Assembly: GCA_019192515.1 (NCBI GenBank)
Contig: JAHCMM010000010.1
Coordinates: 3,393-38,691 of the forward strand
Direction: 5' to 3'
DNA: 35,299 nucleotides
Source: Cyclobacteriaceae bacterium SS2
Lineage (GTDB): Bacteria; Bacteroidota; Bacteroidia; Cytophagales; Cyclobacteriaceae
The position numbers and the translations under genes were made by a program. Of the stretch, positions 12,743 to 23,802 are shown one piece after another. Within the stretch, counting starts at the first letter, position 1; every line of letters begins with the position of its first letter. Below the pieces are notes generated by a model. It was given only the letters and a program-made list of their open reading frames with translations, did not search any database and was not told the origin of the DNA.

Positions 12743-13273
12743 ATGCGAAAGCTAAAAAATGAGGAACTGGGAAGGATTTCGGTAGAGGAATTTAAAGAGG
12801 CCAAAAAATCGAATGTTTGTATCATCCTGGATGACGTGAGAAGCCTGAATAATGTGGGAAGCGTCTTCAGAACTTCTGATGCATTTATGATTGAAAAAGT
12901 TTGGTTGTGTGGGATCACGGGCAAACCCCCACATCGGGATATTCAAAAGACAGCCCTTGGAGCAACAGAATCAGTGGAATGGGAGCATCGAAAAGAAATT
13001 CTTTCATTGATAGATGAGCTGAAAACGGAGGGGTATGAAATCATTAGTGTAGAACAGGCAGATAAAAGTGTTTCTCTCAAAGATTTTACGCCTCAGAAAA
13101 ATTCCAGGTACGCACTCATTTTTGGCAATGAAGTCTTTGGTGTGAAAGAGGAGGTTGTGAAAAAGTCAGATGTTGTCCTGGAGATTCCTCAACAGGGTAC
13201 CAAGCACTCGCTCAATATTTCTGTGAGTGTCGGCGTAGTGGTTTGGGATTTCGTTTCCAAACTGGAAGCTTAG
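12743..13273 (+). CDS. SpoU/TrmH-family RNA 2'-O-methyltransferase
   Basis: A compact 176-residue SPOUT methyltransferase using S-adenosylmethionine to 2'-O-methylate RNA. All three SpoU motifs are present: motif 1 'LDDVRSLNNVGSVFRTSDA' (about 30-48), motif 2 'ALIFGNEVFGV' (about 123-133) and motif 3 'IPQQGTKHSLNISVSVGV' (about 147-164). The last two build the trefoil knot that binds the cofactor. There is no extra N-terminal RNA-binding domain, so it resembles the short TrmH-like group; tRNA versus rRNA target is uncertain. It converges on the TonB receptor gene with a 4-bp overlap. Confidence 0.9.
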   Translation: MRKLKNEELGRISVEEFKEAKKSNVCIILDDVRSLNNVGSVFRTSDAFMIEKVWLCGITGKPPHRDIQKTALGATESVEWEHRKEILSLIDELKTEGYEIISVEQADKSVSLKDFTPQKNSRYALIFGNEVFGVKEEVVKKSDVVLEIPQQGTKHSLNISVSVGVVVWDFVSKLEA

Positions 13274-15699
13274 AACTTCACCCCAATGGTGATGTATCCG
13301 CTTCTTCCGTCTGAAGGAATAATTCCTGGACCCGGGTAACCCGCTGCTCTTCGGGTAAAATAGTAGTTATTAAGTAAATTATTGATTCCGGTTTCCAGTC
13401 GCCAGTTTTTCAGTTCATAAGTCAGGGACAGATCCATGACCGAGTATGCCGGAATGATCCCTTCTACTGAATTTGTAGACTTGTCGGCATTGGTAGCATC
13501 GGAATATTGCTGAGCAACATAGCTAAAAAGGTAGGAGATGCCCAAAGACTGATACTTGTAGGTCAACCCGGTCTTGATATTGACAGGAGGAACAAGCTCC
13601 ACTTCATTTCCTTCAATGCTGTTTTCCTGGTTTTCCAGGTAAGCTGATTGCAATGCAGCAAAATTGATGAATCCGGTAAGCTTTGATTTTTTAGGATTAA
13701 AATTCAGTAACCGAAACAGATTTCCTTCCACATAAGTCTCGATCCCGTAAATATTGGCATCACCTACATTCGTACGATACCGGAATACTTTAGGTACATA
13801 GAAGTTAAATCTTGGATCGGCAGAAGTCTTCAGGACGTTCCCTATTCTATCCTTGTAAGCCAGGTAAAACAACGAGATATCATATCTGAAAACCTCACTT
13901 TCAGAACCTCTAATCCCGATATCAAAATTGTAACCTCTTTCGTCATCAATATTTTCATCCACAGTCAGGGAAGGATTGTCTACCCGGATATCATTGAAAT
14001 TGATGGCCCGGAAGTTTTGAGAGAAATTGGAATACATTTCAAGTCTCTCACTGGGCTTGTAACTAACGCCTACTCCCATGAGGATGAATGACCTGAATTT
14101 GGAGCGTTCCTCATCTACTTTTTCTGAAAAAATGATGTTTCCTGCAATATCAGATTGTTCGTTGTAATAATAACCATCGGCATTTGTCCGGATGTTTTCA
14201 TATCTCATCCCGGGTGTAATGCTCCACTTGTCTGAAATGTTGAATATGTTTTCCGCAAAGAAGGCAATGTTCTGTCCCGGGAAGTGAAACTGTGAATCAT
14301 CGGGTTCCTCAGGATTGATGAAACTGAAATCTGCGTCATATCCATTGTCAGCCTCGCCCTGGGCACTCATGGTACTTCCAAAGTATACCCTGTTTCCAAT
14401 AAGGAGAACGGATTTCTGGCCCAGCAAAGGATAATGGATGATGGTTCGGAATTCATTACCCCAGTTATCGTAGTCGTCTTTGAGCAGGTTTCGGTTTTCA
14501 TCAGTATCATCCACACGAGTGATAGGTCCCAGGTTGCCAACAGCATATCTGTTGGCAGATAAATGAAAAGTCCGGTTATTGAATTTGACATTGTCGGAAA
14601 CCCGGAAATTCAGTTCAGCCGCCGACAGGTTCCAGCCCACCTGAAACCAGTTCCTTTCCCTTTTAGATTGACGCGGATTGCTATAAAATTCCGAATCCAT
14701 TAAGCCTCCGGGTTGCTGAGCCAGGTAGCCCATATATGTGTGCTCAAATTTTAGACTAACGAAAGCATTGAAATTGTAGGTAAAGGATCCATAAGCATTG
14801 TGTTGATCAATTCCTGAATTAGGTCTCCAGCCTTCGCTGGATTTGTATTGATAGAACCCGTAGTAGTTCACTTTTCCGATGGTACCACCAACGCTGTTGA
14901 AGGTGTTGAAAAGATTAAACGAGCCTATGGTGTTTACAGAATTGACCTCTAGCTTCTTGTCTTTTGGTCCATCCTTAAAATCAAAGTTGAGCAATCCGCC
15001 AAACTGGGTGCCGTACTGTAGCCCGGCAGCTCCTCTTACAATCTCGATTTTCTCCAACGCCAAAGAAGGTGGTGTGTAATAGCTCTCCGGATAACCCAAA
15101 GCATCAGCAGAAATGTCATAACCATTTTGACGGACATTGAAGTTAGAAGTTCTGTTCGGGCTAAGACCTCTTCCACCAATACCCAGCTGAATACCAGCAC
15201 CGTCATTTTCCCAGATATTCAAACCGGGTACCCGTGAATAGATCTGTCTGCTCACACCAGCTGCTTTATTGGCTATCACTTCATCCAGCACGATCAGCTC
15301 AGTCTTCTTTGCTTCATAAATAGCTGCACCACTCACGGATTTCAACCAGTTGGCGCCCATCTCCTCTTTGCGGGAGTCAATGATGGTCACCGATTCAAGT
15401 TCCTGATTGATTTCCTGTAATTGGAATTCAATTTTTACCGAAGTACCGTCCAGAGCAACGTCCTGAAAGGCATGTTTTAATTCAGGATAATAAGCCACCA
15501 CCCTGTAGCTTCCCTTTCCAAGCCCTGTGATTTGGAAATAGCCCTGTTGATCTGAGCTTGTAAGAATGGAAGTGCCCTCTATAGAGATTTGGACTCCATC
15601 TAAAACTTTGTCATTTTGATCTTTCACGAACCCACTTATCTGTGCCTGAGCCTGACAGACCAATAAAAAAGTCAATATGGTCAGCAGAGCTTTATTCAT
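13270..15699 (-). CDS. TonB-dependent outer-membrane receptor with carboxypeptidase-regulatory N-domain
   Basis: An 809-residue outer-membrane receptor. It has a signal peptide ending AQAQ (about residue 19) and a CarboxypepD_reg-like beta-sandwich 'ISGFVKDQNDKVLDGVQISIEG' (20-105), typical of Bacteroidota. The plug includes 'RVPGLNIWENDGAGIQLGIG' and 'LEKIEIVRGAAGLQYGTQFGG', and a 22-strand barrel ends in the aromatic '...GYITIGVKF'. The plug and barrel resemble FecA-like ferric-chelate receptors rather than SusC. It is the last gene of a four-gene operon with DUF4856, imelysin and HTTM proteins, overlapping HTTM by 8 bp. That context points to iron (or another metal/haem chelate) as cargo; the substrate itself is inference. 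Confidence 0.9.
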   Translation of the reverse strand: MNKALLTILTFLLVCQAQAQISGFVKDQNDKVLDGVQISIEGTSILTSSDQQGYFQITGLGKGSYRVVAYYPELKHAFQDVALDGTSVKIEFQLQEINQELESVTIIDSRKEEMGANWLKSVSGAAIYEAKKTELIVLDEVIANKAAGVSRQIYSRVPGLNIWENDGAGIQLGIGGRGLSPNRTSNFNVRQNGYDISADALGYPESYYTPPSLALEKIEIVRGAAGLQYGTQFGGLLNFDFKDGPKDKKLEVNSVNTIGSFNLFNTFNSVGGTIGKVNYYGFYQYKSSEGWRPNSGIDQHNAYGSFTYNFNAFVSLKFEHTYMGYLAQQPGGLMDSEFYSNPRQSKRERNWFQVGWNLSAAELNFRVSDNVKFNNRTFHLSANRYAVGNLGPITRVDDTDENRNLLKDDYDNWGNEFRTIIHYPLLGQKSVLLIGNRVYFGSTMSAQGEADNGYDADFSFINPEEPDDSQFHFPGQNIAFFAENIFNISDKWSITPGMRYENIRTNADGYYYNEQSDIAGNIIFSEKVDEERSKFRSFILMGVGVSYKPSERLEMYSNFSQNFRAINFNDIRVDNPSLTVDENIDDERGYNFDIGIRGSESEVFRYDISLFYLAYKDRIGNVLKTSADPRFNFYVPKVFRYRTNVGDANIYGIETYVEGNLFRLLNFNPKKSKLTGFINFAALQSAYLENQENSIEGNEVELVPPVNIKTGLTYKYQSLGISYLFSYVAQQYSDATNADKSTNSVEGIIPAYSVMDLSLTYELKNWRLETGINNLLNNYYFTRRAAGYPGPGIIPSDGRSGYITIGVKF

Positions 15700-17023
15700 G
15701 AGGCAGTACGATTGAGGAGAGTTGATTTTTTTCTACTTTGGTCAGGTCGATGGTTGGATCTATGAAGGTCTTTCCTGACCGGCCATTCAATGTGACCCTG
15801 GATTGGGTGGTGATTTTAGGATTTTCAAAGCCCTTTTGCTTAAACTCTTCTTCTAAGAATCGTGCAAACTGCATGATCATATCCGGTTGTGTGGCCATCA
15901 TCTTTTCCTGCTGTGGAGTGAGATAATCATAGTTGGCTACCATGTGCTTTTTATCTCCGTCCTCTACAAAAAATGTGATATGACCGGCTTTTTCCATCAA
16001 CATCACTCTCCACGAAAACCGATAGCCCAGCTCGTTCCAAAATAAATTTCCTGGATAGGCAAGATACCTGAATGGGATTGCGATTTGAAGCATGAAGAAA
16101 AAGACAAACGCATAAACGCCAGCTTTCTGTAACCCACCATAAACACCAGGTTTTGTTTCTGATGAGCCGGGGAATACAGAGGATAGTGTTTTAATAAATT
16201 TCTGATGAATGTGATCCGGAAAAAATATGGTAGTGGCCACAATCATCATCCAGGGAAATACTCCGATGGGAAACAACAACGCAGTCATCAGGTGAAATCC
16301 GATGACAGCTGCATAGGCAATAGGCAATGTTTTTCGGAATGAAAGAAAGAATGGTATGGTAGTATCGAAAAGCATTCCAAACCAGCTGAAGATGTAGGCA
16401 GTAATCTTATATCGGAAGATCCACCCGATTGCAGGTTGATGCACATTGGCAGACAGCCACATTTTTAATGGCTGGGCATTGATGAGCCAGTCATAATTGA
16501 TTTTGGCAATGCCTGCAAAAAAATACACGATACCTAGTTGAAGCTTGATGATATTGATGAAGGCAACCTCAATTTCTTTGAGGGGTGTCACGGATTTCCT
16601 CCATACATCCAATGAAAAGTATCGATGAGCGGGCAACCAGATCATCAGAAATGTGCAGAGGGAAACAAAATAGTAGTGGTTGAGGTAATTGGTTTTGTCC
16701 AACAGCTCCACGTATGTGAACAGGAGGAAAAAACTGAATATGGAAATACGATAATACAGTCCTAATATAATGAGAATGGAGGCCAGGATCATCAGCCCAA
16801 AAACCACGTACATCCCGATCCCTGCAAGAGGCTGGATTCCTTCGATAAATGGAAAAAAGATTTTCGGTTCAACGTACTGGGAATAGATCCATCCTTTTGC
16901 CCAAAACCTGATGGTCGAAATCAACAAAAGAATCCCAAAAAGGATTCTAAAAGTAATCAGGGGAAAGATGGGGACTTTCCTGAAGATCAATTGTTGCGTT
17001 ATGTTATGCCATCGCGAAGTCAT
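15692..17023 (-). CDS. HTTM-domain (vitamin K-dependent carboxylase-like) membrane protein
   Basis: A 443-residue protein with about eight membrane segments in its first ~300 residues. The motifs 'TYVELLDKTNYLNHYYFVSL' and 'ALLFPIGVFPWMMI' are typical of the HTTM (horizontally transferred transmembrane) domain shared with vitamin K-dependent gamma-carboxylases. A soluble C-terminal tail of ~100 residues follows ('SWRVMLMEKAGHITFFV'). True gamma-carboxylation is not established for bacterial HTTM proteins. It overlaps the TonB receptor by 8 bp and shares one base with the imelysin gene (TGATG), so the three are translated together. The recurrent pairing of HTTM and imelysin proteins suggests a role in metal uptake, which is inference. 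Confidence 0.85.
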   Translation of the reverse strand: MTSRWHNITQQLIFRKVPIFPLITFRILFGILLLISTIRFWAKGWIYSQYVEPKIFFPFIEGIQPLAGIGMYVVFGLMILASILIILGLYYRISIFSFFLLFTYVELLDKTNYLNHYYFVSLCTFLMIWLPAHRYFSLDVWRKSVTPLKEIEVAFINIIKLQLGIVYFFAGIAKINYDWLINAQPLKMWLSANVHQPAIGWIFRYKITAYIFSWFGMLFDTTIPFFLSFRKTLPIAYAAVIGFHLMTALLFPIGVFPWMMIVATTIFFPDHIHQKFIKTLSSVFPGSSETKPGVYGGLQKAGVYAFVFFFMLQIAIPFRYLAYPGNLFWNELGYRFSWRVMLMEKAGHITFFVEDGDKKHMVANYDYLTPQQEKMMATQPDMIMQFARFLEEEFKQKGFENPKITTQSRVTLNGRSGKTFIDPTIDLTKVEKNQLSSIVLPHE

Positions 17024-18120
17024 CAGTCACCATCATTATCCTGATAGGTAATTACAACCCCTATTGTGGATGCTAAATCAGTTTTAAGCAGAGCGTTCAT
17101 GATCTGCATTTCTGCAAAGACCATTTCCACGTCTTCCTTTTGACTTTGAATAGTCTGGGGTAAGGGATCGGAAATTTTTCCGATTGCTGATTCAATATTT
17201 TCAAACTGGGTAGCGATGGATTGATTAAGATCTGCATTGTCGATGGTTGTCCCACCAATTGCTTTCAGGTAATCGTCCAGCCCAATGCCATTCCCTCCAA
17301 AATAAAGTGACTTGTATGCCTCAATATTTGCTACCAATAATTCAACAGAATATCCGGCATAATATGCTTCCGAGGAGGTAGGGATAGGCTCGCCCAGTGT
17401 TCGGATGCCCACTGGAATCCCAATTTTTCCATCACGTGTATTGCGCTCAAAATCCCGGTTTAGTGCGTTGATCAACTTTCCAACGGAACTGCCAACGTCT
17501 ACACCAAGGGCGTCTTCAGCAGAAAATTCTGAAATGTAGTTGCCCCCGTCTTCTTTCCAATCATTATATACATCAGAAGATGTGGTAGATATTCTTGTCA
17601 GCACATCTTCGATATACTGAAGTCTTTCTGCAGACAATGAACTGAGAATATCTTCCTGCGCATCAGGATCACCATAAACCAGGTAAGAAATTGCCTGAAA
17701 GCCTTTAGCATCAATGTTGCTGAGGGTAGACAAATCATATGAACCTGAGCTGATGTTTTGATTGATCTGAGTCTGATCCACGGGATAAATGTTCAATTCA
17801 TTCGTCAGGCTCCGGGTCTCAGCAGGGCCAAACTGGTAGGGAGCACAGGCCTGCCAGGCTAATCTGGCACTCTTTAGCTTCGAGCGGAAGTCGTCCAAAG
17901 TGGTTGAATTCGGGTCAGCTTTCAACAGCACAAAAGCATCTGACAAAGCTTCATTTGCTTGTGTCAGATGCTCGTATGCAGGCAAGATCAAATTATTTCC
18001 CAGGTTTTCGAGAAGTGGTTGCTGATCAAAATCATTGGTTTTATCTAGCGCACCATTTTCATTGCAGGAAATTAGAAGCCCGGCCCCAACAGAAAACAAA
18101 ATCAAGGTTAGCTTCTTCAT
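17023..18120 (-). CDS. Imelysin-family lipoprotein with degenerate GxHxxE motif
   Basis: A 365-residue lipoprotein: signal 'MKKLTLILFSVGAGLLISC' with lipobox LISC, then a helical imelysin (former peptidase M75) domain. Imelysin-like proteins (ICMP, IrpA, EfeO relatives) are implicated in iron uptake, and a GxHxxE motif is conserved in many. Here the matching position reads GFQAIS (about 139-144), so both His and Glu are replaced, although the context 'AISYLVYG' is preserved. The protein may bind ligand differently or act structurally. It is 3 bp downstream of DUF4856 and overlaps HTTM by one base. Peptidase activity is not supported by the sequence. Confidence 0.85.
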   Translation of the reverse strand: MKKLTLILFSVGAGLLISCNENGALDKTNDFDQQPLLENLGNNLILPAYEHLTQANEALSDAFVLLKADPNSTTLDDFRSKLKSARLAWQACAPYQFGPAETRSLTNELNIYPVDQTQINQNISSGSYDLSTLSNIDAKGFQAISYLVYGDPDAQEDILSSLSAERLQYIEDVLTRISTTSSDVYNDWKEDGGNYISEFSAEDALGVDVGSSVGKLINALNRDFERNTRDGKIGIPVGIRTLGEPIPTSSEAYYAGYSVELLVANIEAYKSLYFGGNGIGLDDYLKAIGGTTIDNADLNQSIATQFENIESAIGKISDPLPQTIQSQKEDVEMVFAEMQIMNALLKTDLASTIGVVITYQDNDGD

Positions 18121-18123
18121 GTT

Positions 18124-19248
18124 TTATAATTCGTTTTGAATATCAGACAGCCGAGGATAAACAGACGCCAGTGTGGATTTAGCTTCTGCCAGATCACCAT
18201 CACCAATTGTCCAGAAATCACCGCCGGTACCGAAGTTTGAATTGAGGATAGTGCTCAAATGTGCGTCAGAAATGGCTCTTTTCTCGCTGAATTTTAAAGC
18301 CCTCACAAATGCATAGGCCTCGGATACATGATGCAAAAAGTCTCCTTCATTATCATCTGTCAAAGCTGAGTTGATGTAGTGGATAGCTGTAGCCGCCGCT
18401 ACAATTTCAAATTCCTCGTAGATTATTGCTACCTGGGCTTCCAGTGTTTCTTCATCATTATTCACAATGGCTGTTCTTCCGGCCAGAAAAGCATTTTTAA
18501 GATTTGTAACCGAGCCTACAAGGGATTCCCGGCCATAGCTGTAATTGGCCCAAAACCTGTTGTTTTCTGAAGGAAGCTCAGATGGAAAATCTACAGGCAC
18601 ACCCCAGTAACCGAAAGCTTCATCGAAATGGTGTTCTTTGGCCGTATAGTTGGCACCGTCAACGAGGTTGGTATTGTCTACAGATGAACCGATTCTATCA
18701 TCTGTTAAATAGGTGTTGTAAATCTGGTGTAAAAATACAGACCCCATCAGCCCTTTTTCAATTACCTGGGTGAACTCCCATCCTTTTTCATTTACAAGGA
18801 CATAATTGCCGTTTCCTCGTTGGATCCTTCCAGCCACTCCTGCAGATGCCACAGCGTCATTGGCCACAACAGCTTCGCTGGCAGCCTCAGCAGCTTCAAA
18901 AAGATCTTTGTAAAATGTTACATCTGCCAGAAATGTTTTGTCTTCCAGTTGTTTTGAAGAAGCATTCAAATCCGAATTGGTGAAGGCGTCGTTTTCATTT
19001 GAAAACATGTTGTTGAGTTTTGCTGCTTCCAGTGCATTGCCTGCGTCGCCATTTCCAAGATAAGATTTGATCTCAGAAAGCATGTTTAATCGATCTGTCT
19101 GACCAGAAAAACTGACGGTAGACTCGTCATCTCTGGTAAAAGAGTAAGTTGTGGGGACATTGATTCCGGGAGCCGGATCTTCTTTATCGTTACAGGCATT
19201 AAGAAATATTAGTAATAGCGCAGATGTGGCTAATGCAATTTTGTTCAT
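18124..19248 (-). CDS. DUF4856 lipoprotein, first gene of the uptake operon
   Basis: The ATG at 19248 gives 374 residues; the ORF-track start adds 12 unlikely codons. 'MNKIALATSALLLIFLNAC' is a lipoprotein signal (lipobox LNAC) and the acidic 'NDKEDP' after Cys suits Bacteroidota surface lipoproteins. The DUF4856 hallmark 'EHHFDEAFGYWGVP' is intact in the centre, in a mainly helical protein related in shape to imelysins. Several His/Asp/Glu residues of this motif could bind a metal. Upstream lie a TTG-N20-CAATTTTG promoter, a Fur-like box at the start site and three CTA-N4-TAG palindromes, so iron-responsive control is strongly suggested. The function of DUF4856 is not known to me. Confidence 0.85.
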   Translation of the reverse strand: MNKIALATSALLLIFLNACNDKEDPAPGINVPTTYSFTRDDESTVSFSGQTDRLNMLSEIKSYLGNGDAGNALEAAKLNNMFSNENDAFTNSDLNASSKQLEDKTFLADVTFYKDLFEAAEAASEAVVANDAVASAGVAGRIQRGNGNYVLVNEKGWEFTQVIEKGLMGSVFLHQIYNTYLTDDRIGSSVDNTNLVDGANYTAKEHHFDEAFGYWGVPVDFPSELPSENNRFWANYSYGRESLVGSVTNLKNAFLAGRTAIVNNDEETLEAQVAIIYEEFEIVAAATAIHYINSALTDDNEGDFLHHVSEAYAFVRALKFSEKRAISDAHLSTILNSNFGTGGDFWTIGDGDLAEAKSTLASVYPRLSDIQNEL

Positions 19249-19261
19249 TTTTGAATGATTA

Positions 19262-19278
19262 TTTGGAATAATTCTAAA
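19262..19278. promoter_or_regulatory. Fur-like box at the DUF4856 transcription start
   Basis: TTTGGAATAATTCTAAA is a 7-3-7 palindrome with one mismatch. It ends 3 bp from the -7 element (19282-19289) and so covers the predicted transcription start, the expected place for a repressor. It closely matches the palindrome before the response regulator gene (TTTAGAATCGTTCTAAA) with identical spacing. The form agrees with the TTTAGAAT..TTCTAAA Fur boxes I recall from Flavobacteriia. Confidence 0.65.
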
Positions 19279-19281
19279 CAG

Positions 19282-19312
19282 CAAAATTGCGTGAAGTGGG
19301 CGCTAGAATCAA
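19282..19312 (-). promoter_or_regulatory. Promoter of the DUF4856-imelysin-HTTM-TonB operon
   Basis: On the minus strand a TTG (plus-strand CAA 19310-19312) is followed after 20 nt by CAATTTTG (plus-strand 19282-19289), one mismatch from TAnnTTTG. The start would fall near 19275, about 27 nt before the ATG. Confidence 0.6.
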
Positions 19313-19374
19313 TCACTACTAGTAGCCAAATTCGTGATCACTACTAATAGCTATTGATCACTACTAGTAGTGAT
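19312..19374. promoter_or_regulatory. Array of three CTA-N4-TAG operator sites
   Basis: Three 18-bp sites lie upstream of the DUF4856 promoter: ATCACTACTAGTAGCCAA (19312-19329), ATCACTACTAATAGCTAT (19337-19354) and ATCACTACTAGTAGTGAT (19357-19374). The third is a perfect palindrome. Start-to-start distances are 25 and 20 bp, roughly two helical turns. The proximal site overlaps the -33 TTG by one base. Position just upstream of -33 suits an activator. Confidence 0.75.
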
Positions 19375-20110: not shown

Positions 20111-20491
20111 CTAATTAGACTTGATCAGTGCTCCCTTACGGATGATTTCTTTGTGGATAAGACTATTCAGCTCTAGCATGGCAAATGTTCCGGCAAATAA
20201 ATCCTTCAATTCAAGGATTTCCTGGATAGTAAAAACAAAAAGCCTGTCACAGTGCGGCATACTGACAATCTCAATGTCAGGAGTATCACTGGCTAATAGC
20301 TTTGTCAGGTCAATCTTTTGAATTTTCCTACGGAAGGAAATCAGCTCACATGCTCTGAATTCTATTTGATCCTGATTGAAAGAAAGGATATACTTTCCCT
20401 GCGCATCGCATTGCGTAATGCTTGCATTGGAAGTTTGAAACAGAACTTCCCGAGATGAAATTGTATGTGACTCAGCTAGATTTTCGGACAT
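20111..20491 (-). CDS. DUF6686-like hypothetical protein linked to iron genes
   Basis: A 126-residue soluble protein without signal peptide. The segment 'GKYILSFNQDQIEFRACELISFRRKI' resembles small Bacteroidota DUF6686-like proteins as I recall them, and the C-terminal half is helical ('IQEILELKDLFAGTFAML'). Two Cys (in 'ITQCDAQG' and 'EFRACEL') plus 'MPHCDRLF' give three Cys that could bind metal or disulfide. It starts inside the 3' end of the overlapping Cys-rich gene (16-bp overlap) and precedes ferritin. The context says iron storage or sensing, but no function is established. Confidence 0.55.
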   Translation of the reverse strand: MSENLAESHTISSREVLFQTSNASITQCDAQGKYILSFNQDQIEFRACELISFRRKIQKIDLTKLLASDTPDIEIVSMPHCDRLFVFTIQEILELKDLFAGTFAMLELNSLIHKEIIRKGALIKSN

Positions 20492-20650: not shown

Positions 20651-20681
20651 CAAAGTTGGCTCGAAAAATTTTTGGATTCAA
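20651..20681 (-). promoter_or_regulatory. Promoter of the Cys-rich/DUF6686-like unit
   Basis: Minus strand TTG (plus CAA 20679-20681), 20-nt spacer, then CAACTTTG (plus 20651-20658), one mismatch from TAnnTTTG. The start near 20644 gives a leader of about 13 nt to the GTG. Confidence 0.6.
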
Positions 20682-20722
20682 TCGCTACCCCTAGCTAAAT
20701 CTATATCACTAGAACTAGCTAG
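20681..20722. promoter_or_regulatory. Two CTA-N4-TAG operator sites before the Cys-rich gene
   Basis: ATCGCTACCCCTAGCTAA (20681-20698) overlaps the -33 TTG by one base, exactly as at the DUF4856 and feo promoters. ATCACTAGAACTAGCTAG (20705-20722) lies 24 bp further upstream and runs into the last codons of the FeoB-associated gene. Confidence 0.7.
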
Positions 20723-20861
20723 TCGATCCCCTGGAAACTTGGTTTACCGCGCATTTTTCACAACCAGGGGATTCTTTCCCTTTGATAGATCTGAAAAGCT
20801 TACGCCCCAGGAAGAAGCCTGATAAGACAAATAAACCGATAACGATAATCGTTTGAATCAT
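20715..20861 (-). CDS. FeoB-associated Cys-rich membrane protein
   Basis: The track ORF (89 aa from 20984) is mostly a shadow of feoB. The real start is the ATG at 20861, which overlaps the feoB stop as ATGA and gives 48 residues. One membrane helix 'MIQTIIVIGLFVLSGFFLG' is followed by a basic stretch and a cytosolic CxxC ('PGCEKCAVN'). That is the layout of FeoB-associated Cys-rich membrane proteins, thought to assist ferrous iron transport in place of FeoC. Its last codons carry one half of an operator site for the next transcription unit. Confidence 0.8.
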   Translation of the reverse strand: MIQTIIVIGLFVLSGFFLGRKLFRSIKGKESPGCEKCAVNQVSRGSTS

Positions 20862-22822
20862 TTCAGTATTTGATACGTAATCAATGCCGCTAAATAAGCC
20901 ATGGCTGTCATGTAGATGAGTTGCAACAATGGCCATTTCCATTTTTTCGTTTCTCTCAATACCACGGCAAGTGTACTCATACACTGCATGGCAAAAGCAT
21001 AAAACACCATCAAAGAAAGACCCGATGCCAGGTTATAAACTGGCTTTCCTGTTTCAGGATTCTGTTCTTTCCTCATGCGCTGGATCAATGTTTCGTCCGC
21101 TTCAAAATTTTCACCAACACTATAAATAGTTGCCATTGATCCTACAAATACTTCTCTCGCTGCAAATGATGTGATCAGTGCAATGCCTATCTGCCAGTTA
21201 TAACCCAAAGGACGAATGGCGGGTTCCATGGCATGGCCTAAAATTCCAATATAGGAATTGGATAGACTTACAGAGGCCACCTTTTTTTCATAAGCATTTA
21301 CATCTTCCTGGGTTACAGGTTCGGGAATCTTATCAACAGCTTGCTGAATCCGATCTCCGGGGCCATAGGATGCCAATACCCATAAAATGATAGAGATCGA
21401 GAAAATGACTTTTCCCGCATCGAAGACAAAGAGCCGTACTTTTTCCCACAAAGTGATGGCGAGGTTGTTCCACCTGGGCATCCTATAGTATGGAAGCTCC
21501 ATCACCAGGAAGCTCTTCTGCTTTGCTTTGATGATCCATTTAAAAACAAAAGCGGCTAAAAGAGCCCCAAGCAAACCAATCAGGTACATCGCTAGCAAAG
21601 CCAACCCTTGTAATTTGAATGGGCCTATGGTTTGATTGGGGATGACCAAAGCAATAAGTAATGTATAAACCGGTAGTCTGGCCGAGCAGCTCATCAAAGG
21701 TGTGACCATGATAGTGATCAGGCGCTCTTTCCAGTTTTCTATGGTCCTGGTAGCCATGATGGCAGGGATGGCACATGCCACACCCGAAATCAAAGGCACT
21801 ACACTTCGACCATTCAACCCAAAGGGCCTCATGATCTTGTCCATGATAAATACCACCCGGGCCATGTAGCCACTTTCTTCGAGGATAAATATGAAAGCGA
21901 AGAGGAGGGTAATCTGAGGTATGAAAATTAAAACACCACCCAGTCCCGGTATAATGCCTTCAGCGATAAGGCTGGTGAGAACACCTTCCGGCAGGTTGTT
22001 GATGACCCATTGACTCAGACTCAGAAATAGTGTATCGATCAGATCCATAGGCCACTCAGCCCATGCGTAGATAGCCTGAAAGATCACCATCAACACACCC
22101 AGGAAAAGAACGAAGCCGAGCAAAGGATGCGTAATGATTTTGTCGGCCATCCGTTGGCGTTTCAACATCGACCGCTTGGTCGGTTCCTGCCTGACCACAA
22201 ACTTCAGGATATTGTTGATCTTTCGATATCTTTCTTCAACCAGTTGTTTTTGACGGTGCGGGTCAGTGATCAGGAAATGACCTTTTTCAAACTCACCTTC
22301 TATGAAGGAAGAACCTGGGATGTTAGAATCTTCGGATACTGTTTCAGCAATTAGCTGATCCATTCCCTGTCCAGTCCTGGCATTCACAGGCACGATCTTC
22401 ACTCCCCCAAGTACCTCACTAAGCTTTTCGTAGTCAATGACAACTCCTTTTTTGGCAGCAATGTCTGACATGTTCAGTGCAAGGATCACCGGTAGCCCCA
22501 GGTCCATTACCTGGGTGAAGAGCAATAGATTCCTTTCGAGGTTTGAGGCATCTGCCACTACAATGATTCTGTCCGGGTAATCAGCATGAGTAGGATCACT
22601 CAATATATCATAGACGATCTGCTCGTCCTGAGTTTTGGCATACAGGCTGTAAGTACCTGGCAGGTCAAGAATATGATGGGATCCCTTGCTTGTTTTCAGC
22701 AAGCCGGATTTCTTATCAACGGTGACACCGGGAAAGTTTCCAATTTTCTGATTGAGGCCAGTTAACCGGTTAAATATGGAAGTTTTGCCTGAGTTGGGAT
22801 TCCCAACTAATGAAATTTTCAT
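20858..22822 (-). CDS. feoB: Ferrous iron transporter FeoB
   Basis: The 654-residue FeoB imports Fe2+ across the inner membrane. The N-terminal G domain has G1 GNPNSGKTS (7-15), G3 DLPG (53-56) and G4 NMSD (117-120), followed by a helical spacer. Two Gate halves and a core domain follow with about eight to ten membrane segments; the Gate Cys motif 'ACAIPAIMATRTI' is present. It is shorter than E. coli FeoB (773 aa), as is usual in Bacteroidota. It overlaps feoA upstream and the Cys-rich membrane protein downstream, both as ATGA, so the three are translationally coupled. Confidence 0.96.
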   Translation of the reverse strand: MKISLVGNPNSGKTSIFNRLTGLNQKIGNFPGVTVDKKSGLLKTSKGSHHILDLPGTYSLYAKTQDEQIVYDILSDPTHADYPDRIIVVADASNLERNLLLFTQVMDLGLPVILALNMSDIAAKKGVVIDYEKLSEVLGGVKIVPVNARTGQGMDQLIAETVSEDSNIPGSSFIEGEFEKGHFLITDPHRQKQLVEERYRKINNILKFVVRQEPTKRSMLKRQRMADKIITHPLLGFVLFLGVLMVIFQAIYAWAEWPMDLIDTLFLSLSQWVINNLPEGVLTSLIAEGIIPGLGGVLIFIPQITLLFAFIFILEESGYMARVVFIMDKIMRPFGLNGRSVVPLISGVACAIPAIMATRTIENWKERLITIMVTPLMSCSARLPVYTLLIALVIPNQTIGPFKLQGLALLAMYLIGLLGALLAAFVFKWIIKAKQKSFLVMELPYYRMPRWNNLAITLWEKVRLFVFDAGKVIFSISIILWVLASYGPGDRIQQAVDKIPEPVTQEDVNAYEKKVASVSLSNSYIGILGHAMEPAIRPLGYNWQIGIALITSFAAREVFVGSMATIYSVGENFEADETLIQRMRKEQNPETGKPVYNLASGLSLMVFYAFAMQCMSTLAVVLRETKKWKWPLLQLIYMTAMAYLAALITYQILK

Positions 22823-23040
22823 CCTATTTGGACTTCAACCAATGACGCTTCCTCTTTTCTGAGGGATAGGGTATAGCCATCAATATCAACAGCAATGGGA
22901 TCACCAAAGGGTGCCTTGAAAATCACTGAAACAGATTTACCGGGATATAATCCCATATCCGTCAGCTTGGAAGTCAGTCCATTTTCAGTGATACTTTGTA
23001 TGGTCACCTGTTGATTAAGCTTTAGACTATCGAGTGTCAA
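22819..23040 (-). CDS. feoA: Ferrous iron transport protein FeoA (TTG start)
   Basis: A 73-residue SH3-like FeoA domain: 'LTSKLTDMGLYPGKSVSVIF' and 'DPIAVDIDGYTLSLRKEEASLVEV' match the family signature. FeoA is a small cytosolic partner needed for FeoB-driven Fe2+ uptake. No ATG precedes the domain and a stop lies a few codons upstream, so TTG at 23040 is the start. The gene overlaps feoB by 4 bp (ATGA). A promoter with an operator (23117-23134) and a degenerate Fur-like palindrome at the start site lie upstream. Confidence 0.92.
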   Translation of the reverse strand: MTLDSLKLNQQVTIQSITENGLTSKLTDMGLYPGKSVSVIFKAPFGDPIAVDIDGYTLSLRKEEASLVEVQIG

Positions 23041-23062
23041 ATTTATTCTTAATTAATTATTA

Positions 23063-23078
23063 TTAGAGCTGAATCTAA
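23063..23078. promoter_or_regulatory. Degenerate Fur-like palindrome at the feo start site
   Basis: TTAGA-GCTGAA-TCTAA resembles the core TTAGA-N5-TCTAA of the two better boxes in this window but has a 6-nt spacer. It lies just downstream of the feo -7 element. It may be a weak Fur site or chance. Confidence 0.3.
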
Positions 23079-23085
23079 AAAGCTA

Positions 23086-23117
23086 CAAATCTACCGCATC
23101 GAGGGATGGATTTACAA
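23086..23117 (-). promoter_or_regulatory. feoAB promoter
   Basis: Minus strand TTG (plus CAA 23115-23117), 21-nt spacer, then TAGATTTG (plus 23086-23093), an exact TAnnTTTG match. The start near 23079 leaves a leader of about 39 nt to the TTG codon. Confidence 0.7.
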
Positions 23118-23134
23118 TAGCTATTCCTAGTGAT
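23117..23134. promoter_or_regulatory. CTA-N4-TAG operator at the feo promoter
   Basis: Read on the minus strand it is ATCACTAGGAATAGCTAT, matching the middle DUF4856 site (ATCACTACTAATAGCTAT) at 16 of 18 positions. It overlaps the -33 TTG by one base. Confidence 0.72.
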
Positions 23135-23144
23135 AATTGATGCA

Positions 23145-23783
23145 TCAGATCTTTACCAGACCTGTTTCCATGGCATAAACGATCAGTTCAGTAGGGGATT
23201 TCAGATTCAATTTCTTTAAAATGTTTTTTCTGTGTGAGTTGATGGTGTGAACGCTTACATAGAGTTCGTCAGCAATTTCCGTGGTCTTGTAACCTTTCGT
23301 AATCAGTTTCAATACTTCATACTCACGCTGTGACAACACGGTGGGATCGCAATTAATTTCCTTTTCTTCTTCCTGATCCATTAATGTGTCCAGCACCCTG
23401 TTGCAATAAAAGCGAGCGTCTTTGGAAACGGATTTGATGGCACTTAGGATTTCATCTTTGCTACAGCTTTTTGTTACAATCCCTTTGATGCCAAGATCCA
23501 GCAACGATTGTATATGTTCTTTCTTACTTTCATTTGTGATGATCAGTAGTTTAGACGCATCCGAGTCTATTACCTCTTTCATCAGCGCTAAATGAGAAGA
23601 ATCCTTGCTCTGATAGTCCATGATCAAAACATTGGGATGTCTTTCAGCAGTTTCTTTGATAAGCTGTCTGGTATCATCCACGGTTCCAAGCAGCGAAAGA
23701 CCCGGATCAGCTTCGATCATGCGTATCAATCCTTCACGAGTGAGGTATTGAAAGTCAGAAATGAGCACACTAATTGGTTCCAT
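23145..23783 (-). CDS. NarL/FixJ-family response regulator (orphan), candidate iron regulator
   Basis: A 212-residue two-domain regulator. The receiver domain has Asp10, phosphoacceptor Asp56 ('VLIMDYQSKD'), Thr83 and Lys105, although the loop after Asp56 lacks the usual MPxxxG. The C-terminal LuxR-type helix-turn-helix is typical: 'LSQREYEVLKLITKGYKTTE' and 'ELYVSVHTINSHRKNILKKL'. No histidine kinase is in the window. It lies about 100 bp upstream of feoA on the same strand, with a Fur-like box and a TAGGTTTG -7 element at its own start. NarL-type proteins bind short palindromes such as TAGGG-N4-CCCTA (NreC), so it is the obvious candidate for the CTA-N4-TAG sites nearby; that link is inference. 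Confidence 0.9.
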   Translation of the reverse strand: MEPISVLISDFQYLTREGLIRMIEADPGLSLLGTVDDTRQLIKETAERHPNVLIMDYQSKDSSHLALMKEVIDSDASKLLIITNESKKEHIQSLLDLGIKGIVTKSCSKDEILSAIKSVSKDARFYCNRVLDTLMDQEEEKEINCDPTVLSQREYEVLKLITKGYKTTEIADELYVSVHTINSHRKNILKKLNLKSPTELIVYAMETGLVKI

Positions 23784-23785
23784 TA

Positions 23786-23802
23786 TTTAGAATCGTTCTA
23801 AA
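23786..23802. promoter_or_regulatory. Fur-like box before the response regulator
   Basis: TTTAGAATCGTTCTAAA is a perfect 7-3-7 palindrome 2 bp before the regulator's ATG. It ends 3 bp from the -7 element, the same geometry as the DUF4856 box. This suggests Fur repression of the regulator gene. Confidence 0.68.

Follow-up and report, generated by a model that had tools for sequence, protein, structure and literature searches.

Comparative analysis points to a family of orphan NarL-type response regulators as candidate activators of iron uptake in Bacteroidota

It is quite probable that the orphan NarL/LuxR-type response regulator encoded next to feoA in Cyclobacteriaceae bacterium SS2 binds the 18-bp palindrome ATCACTA-N4-TAGTGAT (box A) and activates iron-uptake operons, in a feed-forward arrangement with an iron repressor. 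Comparative sequence analysis has brought out the regulator family, the conservation of its box, a fixed promoter geometry, covariation between the box and the recognition helix, and the conservation of cysteines; from these we infer DNA binding, activation, the part of Fur as repressor and the sensing of a signal by cysteines. Iron regulation in Bacteroidota beyond Fur is poorly known, and the family provides a candidate activator together with its operator, promoter geometry, regulon and a pair of conserved cysteines open to mutation.

The window, by which we mean the whole analysed stretch of 35,299 nucleotides (G000:C329:3393-38691), belongs to a genome of 5.47 Mb in 339 contigs (G000), whose closest named relatives by regulator protein are Marinoscillum. 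The regulator gene (23145..23783, on the minus strand, as are all window features given below; 212 aa; Pfam Response_reg 43.5 bits, GerE 68.5 bits) lies between the divergent fumC and feoA (22819..23040; FeoA 73.6 bits), which is followed by feoB (20858..22822; FeoB_N, Gate and FeoB_C). Our scan of the window agrees with the first-pass annotation, which had placed the regulator directly upstream of feoA and without a kinase partner: a Pfam scan of the larger ORFs of the window found no histidine-kinase domain, and the neighbors of the regulator are fumC and feoA. Further along are the gene of a DUF6686 protein (20111..20491; PF20391, 29.1 bits), a putative target, and an iron operon that starts with a DUF4856 gene (18124..19248, with its likely ATG at 19248; PF16148, 192 bits) and continues with genes that Pfam assigns to an imelysin (Peptidase_M75; 17023..18120), an HTTM/VKGC-like membrane protein (15692..17023) and a TonB-dependent receptor (13270..15699).

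The 18-bp motif that had been noticed in this DNA is present in the window as one perfect and five weaker copies. A motif scan places the perfect copy, ATCACTACTAGTAGTGAT, at the distal end of the DUF4856 promoter (19357..19374), followed by a copy with two mismatches (19337..19354) and, as the promoter alignment also indicates, by a promoter-proximal copy with three (19312..19329). Two weak boxes precede the unit made up of a Cys-rich ORF and the DUF6686 gene, namely ATCACTAGAACTAGCTAG on the plus strand with three mismatches (20705..20722) and ATCGCTACCCCTAGCTAA, likewise on the plus strand, with four (20681..20698), and a box with two mismatches, ATCACTAGGAATAGCTAT, lies upstream of feoA (23117..23134). 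The congener G032 (L023) has an identical feoA box at the corresponding position. Counting the motif genome-wide was uninformative in the window's own genome, which has 50 matches with at most two mismatches, many of them intragenic, versus 38 for a reversed control; across 149 genomes, at most one mismatch being allowed, the excess over the control was small. Since these counts barely exceed those of the reversed controls, only the position and context of a box carry weight. An exact but intergenic box in G142 (L115) was set aside, its flanks AAAAAGC..GCTTTTT giving it the look of a terminator hairpin. An exact box A and a second, degenerate copy were also observed ahead of a gene for a GHL10/NamZ cell-wall hydrolase (L110; G091 C5:124509), an unexpected target not related to iron.

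Homology searches yielded 114 distinct family proteins that were aligned, or 115 when L287 is included; they come mostly from Bacteroidota and in some cases from Ignavibacteria. In relatives, the palindrome follows closely on the 3' end of the regulator gene and stands in front of the operon that comes next. The recognition helix of the window regulator, HTINSHRKN, carries N182 and S183, and belongs to the N-S type (HT[IV]NSHRK). With at most two mismatches and within 260 b 3' of the gene, box A accompanies 17 of the 39 N182-S183 regulators, none of the 72 with Thr183 and none of 5 paralogues, these counts not being independent because the N-S regulators are related to one another. Two of the 17 (L080 and L287) were reached by motif- or helix-guided searches, and leaving them out gives 15 of 37. 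In controls, shuffled sequences gave a mean of 0.05 and a maximum of 1, and the 150 b upstream of the same genes gave none. Where a regulator with Thr183 and Y, H or R at position 182 does have a palindrome, this is ATACCTA-N4-TAGGTAT (box B) or a near variant of it (L041, L045, L048, L160, L088, L095 and L096), and N182-T183 regulators carry mixed half-sites (L036, L040), except for L184, which has a B-type box. Operator and recognition helix thus vary together at the level of sequence, the operators co-varying with residues 182 and 183, which align with K188 and V189 of NarL, residues that we take to be base-contacting. The matched shift of the half-site (TCACTA to TACCTA) and of these residues constitutes a natural experiment in the DNA specificity of the NarL family. 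The parallel that had been drawn with the 4-nt spacing of NreC sites is weak: the solved structures nearest to the regulator are those of LiaR and VraR, and the arms of the NreC site (TAGGG..CCCTA) presumably point the opposite way to those of the regulator box. In one regulator, L080 (G036, 884-1477), both conserved cysteines are lost and E occupies position 56, and an exact ATCACTA-N4-TAGTGAT box lies 23 b 3' of the gene.

No good box was found 3' of the gene in the other 22 of the 39 N-S regulators, which include most of the feoA-linked orthologues, and this would suit a scheme in which another transcription factor, for example one of the CRP/FNR or DtxR type, binds the palindrome and the regulator gene is a co-regulated neighbor. 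The DUF4856 promoter bears on that scheme, as it is usually unlinked to the regulator gene in the genomes compared. Following the co-occurrence check that the first-pass annotation had called for, we sorted 49 DUF4856 promoters by the regulator type of the genome and scored box A with at most two mismatches. It is present in 11 of 16 N-S genomes, in 0 of 7 genomes with other family types (a class that leaves out the Y-T and N-T genomes, counted separately) and in 2 of 21 genomes in which no regulator was detected; N-S against Y-T, other and none together gives a Fisher p of 1.5e-5, the genomes being related. All three Y-T genomes have box B instead, and the N-T genomes have hybrid boxes, ATCACTACCATTAGGTAT in G091 and ATACCTATAACTAGTGAT in G016. 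Moreover, 15 of the 21 DUF4856 promoters in genomes without a detected regulator keep their Fur-like box, indicating that the palindrome, and not the promoter, tracks the regulator.

The two genomes with a box and no detected regulator, G041 and G060, which the rival scheme could claim, are explicable by assembly gaps. In G041, a contig of 71,180 b ends within fumC, beside the position that the regulator occupies in genus-mates, and G060 is a 94%-complete draft of 460 contigs without fumC, in which neither a profile nor a helix-pattern search found a regulator. Genomes having the motif and no regulator, which had been named as the case that would speak against the proposal, are limited to these two among the 21, and both can be accounted for in this way. 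The box was not found at the DUF4856 promoter in four N-S genomes (G057, G068, G112 and G076), and G042, scored as having no regulator, holds a divergent N-S regulator (L287) and has no box at its DUF4856 promoter. The congener G032 has two family members, one by feoA (93% identical to the window regulator) and one by a DUF4856 operon (43%), and the window's own genome has only the feoA-linked member, with three boxes still present at its DUF4856 promoter. Although the three Fur-family and three DtxR-family proteins of this genome supply other candidate binders, the type of box follows the family's recognition helix even at this usually unlinked promoter, and most promoters in family-free genomes keep the Fur-like box without the palindrome; we therefore consider binding by another factor very unlikely. 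The earlier claim that the regulator is the likely binder of the motif is supported, as far as sequences can do so, by the distribution over genome types and by the covariation with the helix.

The regulator is also predicted to be under iron control itself. A Fur-like box, TTTAGAACGATTCTAAA on the coding strand (TTTAGAATCGTTCTAAA, 17 b), occupies 23786..23802, that is, -19 to -3 relative to the regulator start, so that it finishes 3 b ahead of the start codon. This box had already been pointed out, and we find it conserved across the family beyond chance: 64 of the 115 members have a Fur-like box within 150 b upstream, compared with a mean of 0.35 and a maximum of 3 in 200 rounds of shuffling, with 0 of 5 ordinary NarL-type proteins and with 14 of 291 other genes at the same loci. 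As a pattern by itself it is uninformative in this genome (17-18 matches versus 15 in the control). The DUF4856 promoter contains a Fur-like box too (TTTAGAATTATTCCAAA on the coding strand; 19262..19278), and a degenerate one with a 6-base spacer, TTTAGATTCAGCTCTAAT, lies upstream of feoA (23062..23079). The linear cascade proposed at first, from Fur to the regulator to its targets, consequently gives way to a feed-forward loop, because Fur-like boxes are present in the promoters of the targets too.

The geometry of these promoters is fixed. Measured from start to start, the offset between box and Fur-like box is 75-81 b in 15 of 30 cases and 98-103 b in 11 of 30, and a reversed-motif control gave three scattered matches. 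In aligned promoters, the palindrome or palindromes end in a last half-site, TAGCGATTG or GGTATTG, that overlaps the TTG of the -33 element, followed after about 20 b by a -7 element, the Fur-like box and the gene. The -7 element matches TAnnTTTG, the consensus in Bacteroidota (PMC9723704), strictly in 12 of 25 aligned promoters and nearly in the others. The feoA promoter follows the same plan, with a single box whose last T begins the -33 TTG, the -7 element TAGATTTG (23086..23093) 21 b further on, and then the degenerate Fur-like box.

The fixed offsets and the location of the boxes upstream of or at -33 suggest activation, and the last half-site overlaps -33 as one would predict for an activator in contact with RNA polymerase. 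A regulator dimer would bind between one and three boxes in tandem, with the final box overlapping the -33 element, from where NarL-type proteins are able to recruit RNA polymerase. With Fur-like boxes lying across the regulator start and just past the -7 element of the targets, plentiful iron would let the iron repressor silence both, and low iron would free the targets and allow the regulator to be made, boosting them further. Since one iron repressor would repress the regulator and the targets, and the regulator would activate the targets, the loop would be coherent. The same sites could be read the other way, with the regulator acting as a repressor that lowers iron uptake when another stress, for instance oxidation, sets in, much as RitR represses iron transport upon oxidation of its Cys128 (PMC5965902), and the conserved cysteines of the family would fit such a role. 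Repression is nevertheless unlikely, as the boxes do not cover the -7 element or the start, and the Fur-like control common to the regulator and its targets suits an activator produced under iron shortage.

Within this proposed activator loop, the repressor may be Fur or another of the six Fur- and DtxR-family proteins mentioned above, either kind being a candidate binder of the Fur-like sequence TTTAGAATTAATCTAAA. Fur is mildly favored since a Fur-like box also stands ahead of a gene (C160:389) that by eye looks like sufB, and a DtxR-linked operon in the same genome has none. The latter, observed on C223 (L323), is a second feo-like operon with a DtxR-type regulator, a second DtxR-domain protein and a FeoB-like GTPase, and is possibly a manganese system.

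In the window's own genome, the candidate targets are the DUF4856-imelysin-HTTM-TonB operon, the Cys-rich ORF with DUF6686, and feoAB. Outside the window, an intergenic box precedes a PepSY_TM gene (C106), two boxes and a perfect Fur-like box precede a PepSY_TM operon on C1, opposite which lies a TonB-receptor-like gene whose product has a CarboxypepD start, and a box and a Fur-like box precede a second DUF6686 gene (C125). The neighbors of boxes and regulators in relatives are similar: feoAB, DUF4856-imelysin-HTTM-TonB, a TonB receptor with PepSY_TM, PBP/FecCD ABC genes, and DUF6686 with flavodoxin. Boxes stand ahead of DUF6686 genes in L032, L183 and G000 C125. The first-pass annotation had the regulator tuning feo, the Cys-rich unit and the DUF4856 operon; the DUF4856 boxes do track the regulator, whereas feo is a weak target and the least conserved one, most feoA-linked orthologues having no clear palindrome and the window box having two mismatches. 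In the window's genus, feo is plausible as a target. Separately, the DUF6686 genes behind regulator boxes (20111-20491; G000 C125:5726-6067, which is L109; L183:4806-5464; and L032) adjoin ferritin, flavodoxin or feo genes, and to judge from these contexts DUF6686 is likely an iron-stress protein family of unknown function.

How the regulator is switched is the weakest part of our reading, both as to independence from phosphorylation and as to sensing by cysteines. Pfam recognizes a receiver and a GerE/LuxR helix-turn-helix, and the AF2 model (pLDDT 89.7) is nearest to LiaR. In the receiver, S9-D10 replaces the acidic pair, D56 is followed by YQSKD without the M/P loop, and T83 and K105 are retained. 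The divergent loop after Asp56 that had been remarked on is thus real, and the canonical phosphorylation site is incomplete, the acidic pair being down to one residue almost family-wide. The family signature is TKxC(107)...RFxC(127)N; in the 114-protein alignment, C107 is found in 113 proteins, C127 in 112 and C145 in 76, or two thirds, so that the first two are better conserved than the phospho-accepting Asp56 (106 of 114), and the window regulator has all three. In the AF2 model, C107 lies immediately ahead of helix 5 and C127 directly after a two-residue strand (125-126); as the likely partner of this strand is the edge strand 101-104, the model suggests that the two cysteines may be close together in the fold.

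Phosphorylation by an unlinked kinase or a small phosphodonor, with structural cysteines, would be in keeping with the retention of D56 and of K105 (104 of 114). It appears rather doubtful, given the acidic residue missing almost throughout the family, the E or N at position 56 in 8 of 114 proteins, and L287 of G042, which has lost D10, D56 and K105 and has no Pfam receiver match, but still has C107 and C127, as well as an exact box 24 b past its stop codon. These features strengthen the earlier suggestion that the protein may work without phosphorylation, and Cys107 and Cys127 look like the switch in its place. The receiver would lack normal kinase input, and the two cysteines would be the likely site of the remaining signal (redox or iron/Fe-S). 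More tentatively, and with somewhat less than even confidence, we picture a whole family, found in Bacteroidota for the most part and in Ignavibacteria as well, whose receiver has turned into a cysteine sensor of thiol redox or Fe-S status (Cys107, Cys127, often Cys145) and whose feed-forward with Fur would give full iron uptake when the repressor is off and the cysteine signal is on, with operators co-evolving with residues 182 and 183.

Several known systems resemble parts of this scheme. SsoR of Shewanella oneidensis is an orphan response regulator, repressed by Fur, that activates a siderophore iron-uptake operon independently of phosphorylation (PMC12442407). The circuit proposed for our regulator has the same logic, a likeness of function: Fur-like boxes stand ahead of the regulator genes, and the boxes at and upstream of -33 lie where they would fit an activator. 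SsoR differs in being gammaproteobacterial, and its description mentions no cysteine switch (PMC12442407). The nearest described function in Bacteroidota is that of CdhR (PG1237) of Porphyromonas gingivalis and BT0520 of Bacteroides thetaiotaomicron, annotated DNA-binding response regulators that are described as activators of the hmu heme operon, induced by iron limitation (PMC10434189, PMC10101095). By its description, CdhR stands apart in being paired or fused with hemerythrin, and Pfam found no hemerythrin gene beside our regulator among the window ORFs. RitR of Streptococcus pneumoniae is an orphan regulator of iron transport that combines a degenerate receiver with a cysteine of functional importance (PMC5965902, PMC4395418). 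It shares with our regulator a conserved cysteine in the receiver/linker region, but is derived from CovR, has a single linker cysteine and represses iron transport; our regulator is of the NarL type, has its two to three cysteines at different positions and goes with activator-like sites. Should the family's cysteines sense redox or Fe-S status, they would parallel RitR independently, in a different phylum. The cyanobacterial Rre1, RpaA and RpaB are response regulators with a cysteine-dependent oligomeric state (PMC9321951), but have cognate kinases and are not iron-uptake regulators of a comparable kind. The structures of LiaR, VraR and NarL (5hev, 4gvp and 1a04) share fold and domain order with the regulator, with 20-27% identity over structural alignments, although these proteins are kinase-controlled and have different targets. 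As a whole, the proposed circuit follows an SsoR-like logic, and its cysteine idea is parallel to RitR and Rre1. The literature searched, which mostly excluded subscription papers, contained no description of the family, its operator or its promoter architecture.

The family is distinct from the ordinary NarL-type proteins that the window's own genome also encodes (L002-L005), which share 25-29% identity with it and form a separate branch, and from the named NCBIfam regulators (NarL, NarP, GacA, MctR and others), the best of which scored 114.9 bits against a curated cut-off of 300. A strict DNA pattern for TKxC...FxC applied to 396 genomes of the phylum matched mostly unrelated sequence and five real members, three of which (L357-L359) lie outside the taxonomic family of the window, in the distant family f17. 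Each of these three has a Y182-T183 helix and stands beside a gene with a CarboxypepD-type start that resembles a TonB receptor by eye; TTAGGTA/TTACCTA half-sites are present, and in two of them a Fur-like sequence lies between regulator and neighbor. Judged from these three loci, the regulator-target arrangement appears to be ancient. The family's role probably extends beyond iron, because many members in Saprospiraceae adjoin LysM or PorP/SprF genes without a recognizable box, as was seen for several of L142, L158, L173, L176 and others; their targets and signals may differ. Finally, a member in Pontibacter harenae (L187, 3236-3769) lies divergently to an hscB-like gene for a co-chaperone of Fe-S assembly, which would fit an Fe-S-related signal, and L195 is flanked by a gene similar in size and position to this hscB-like neighbor.
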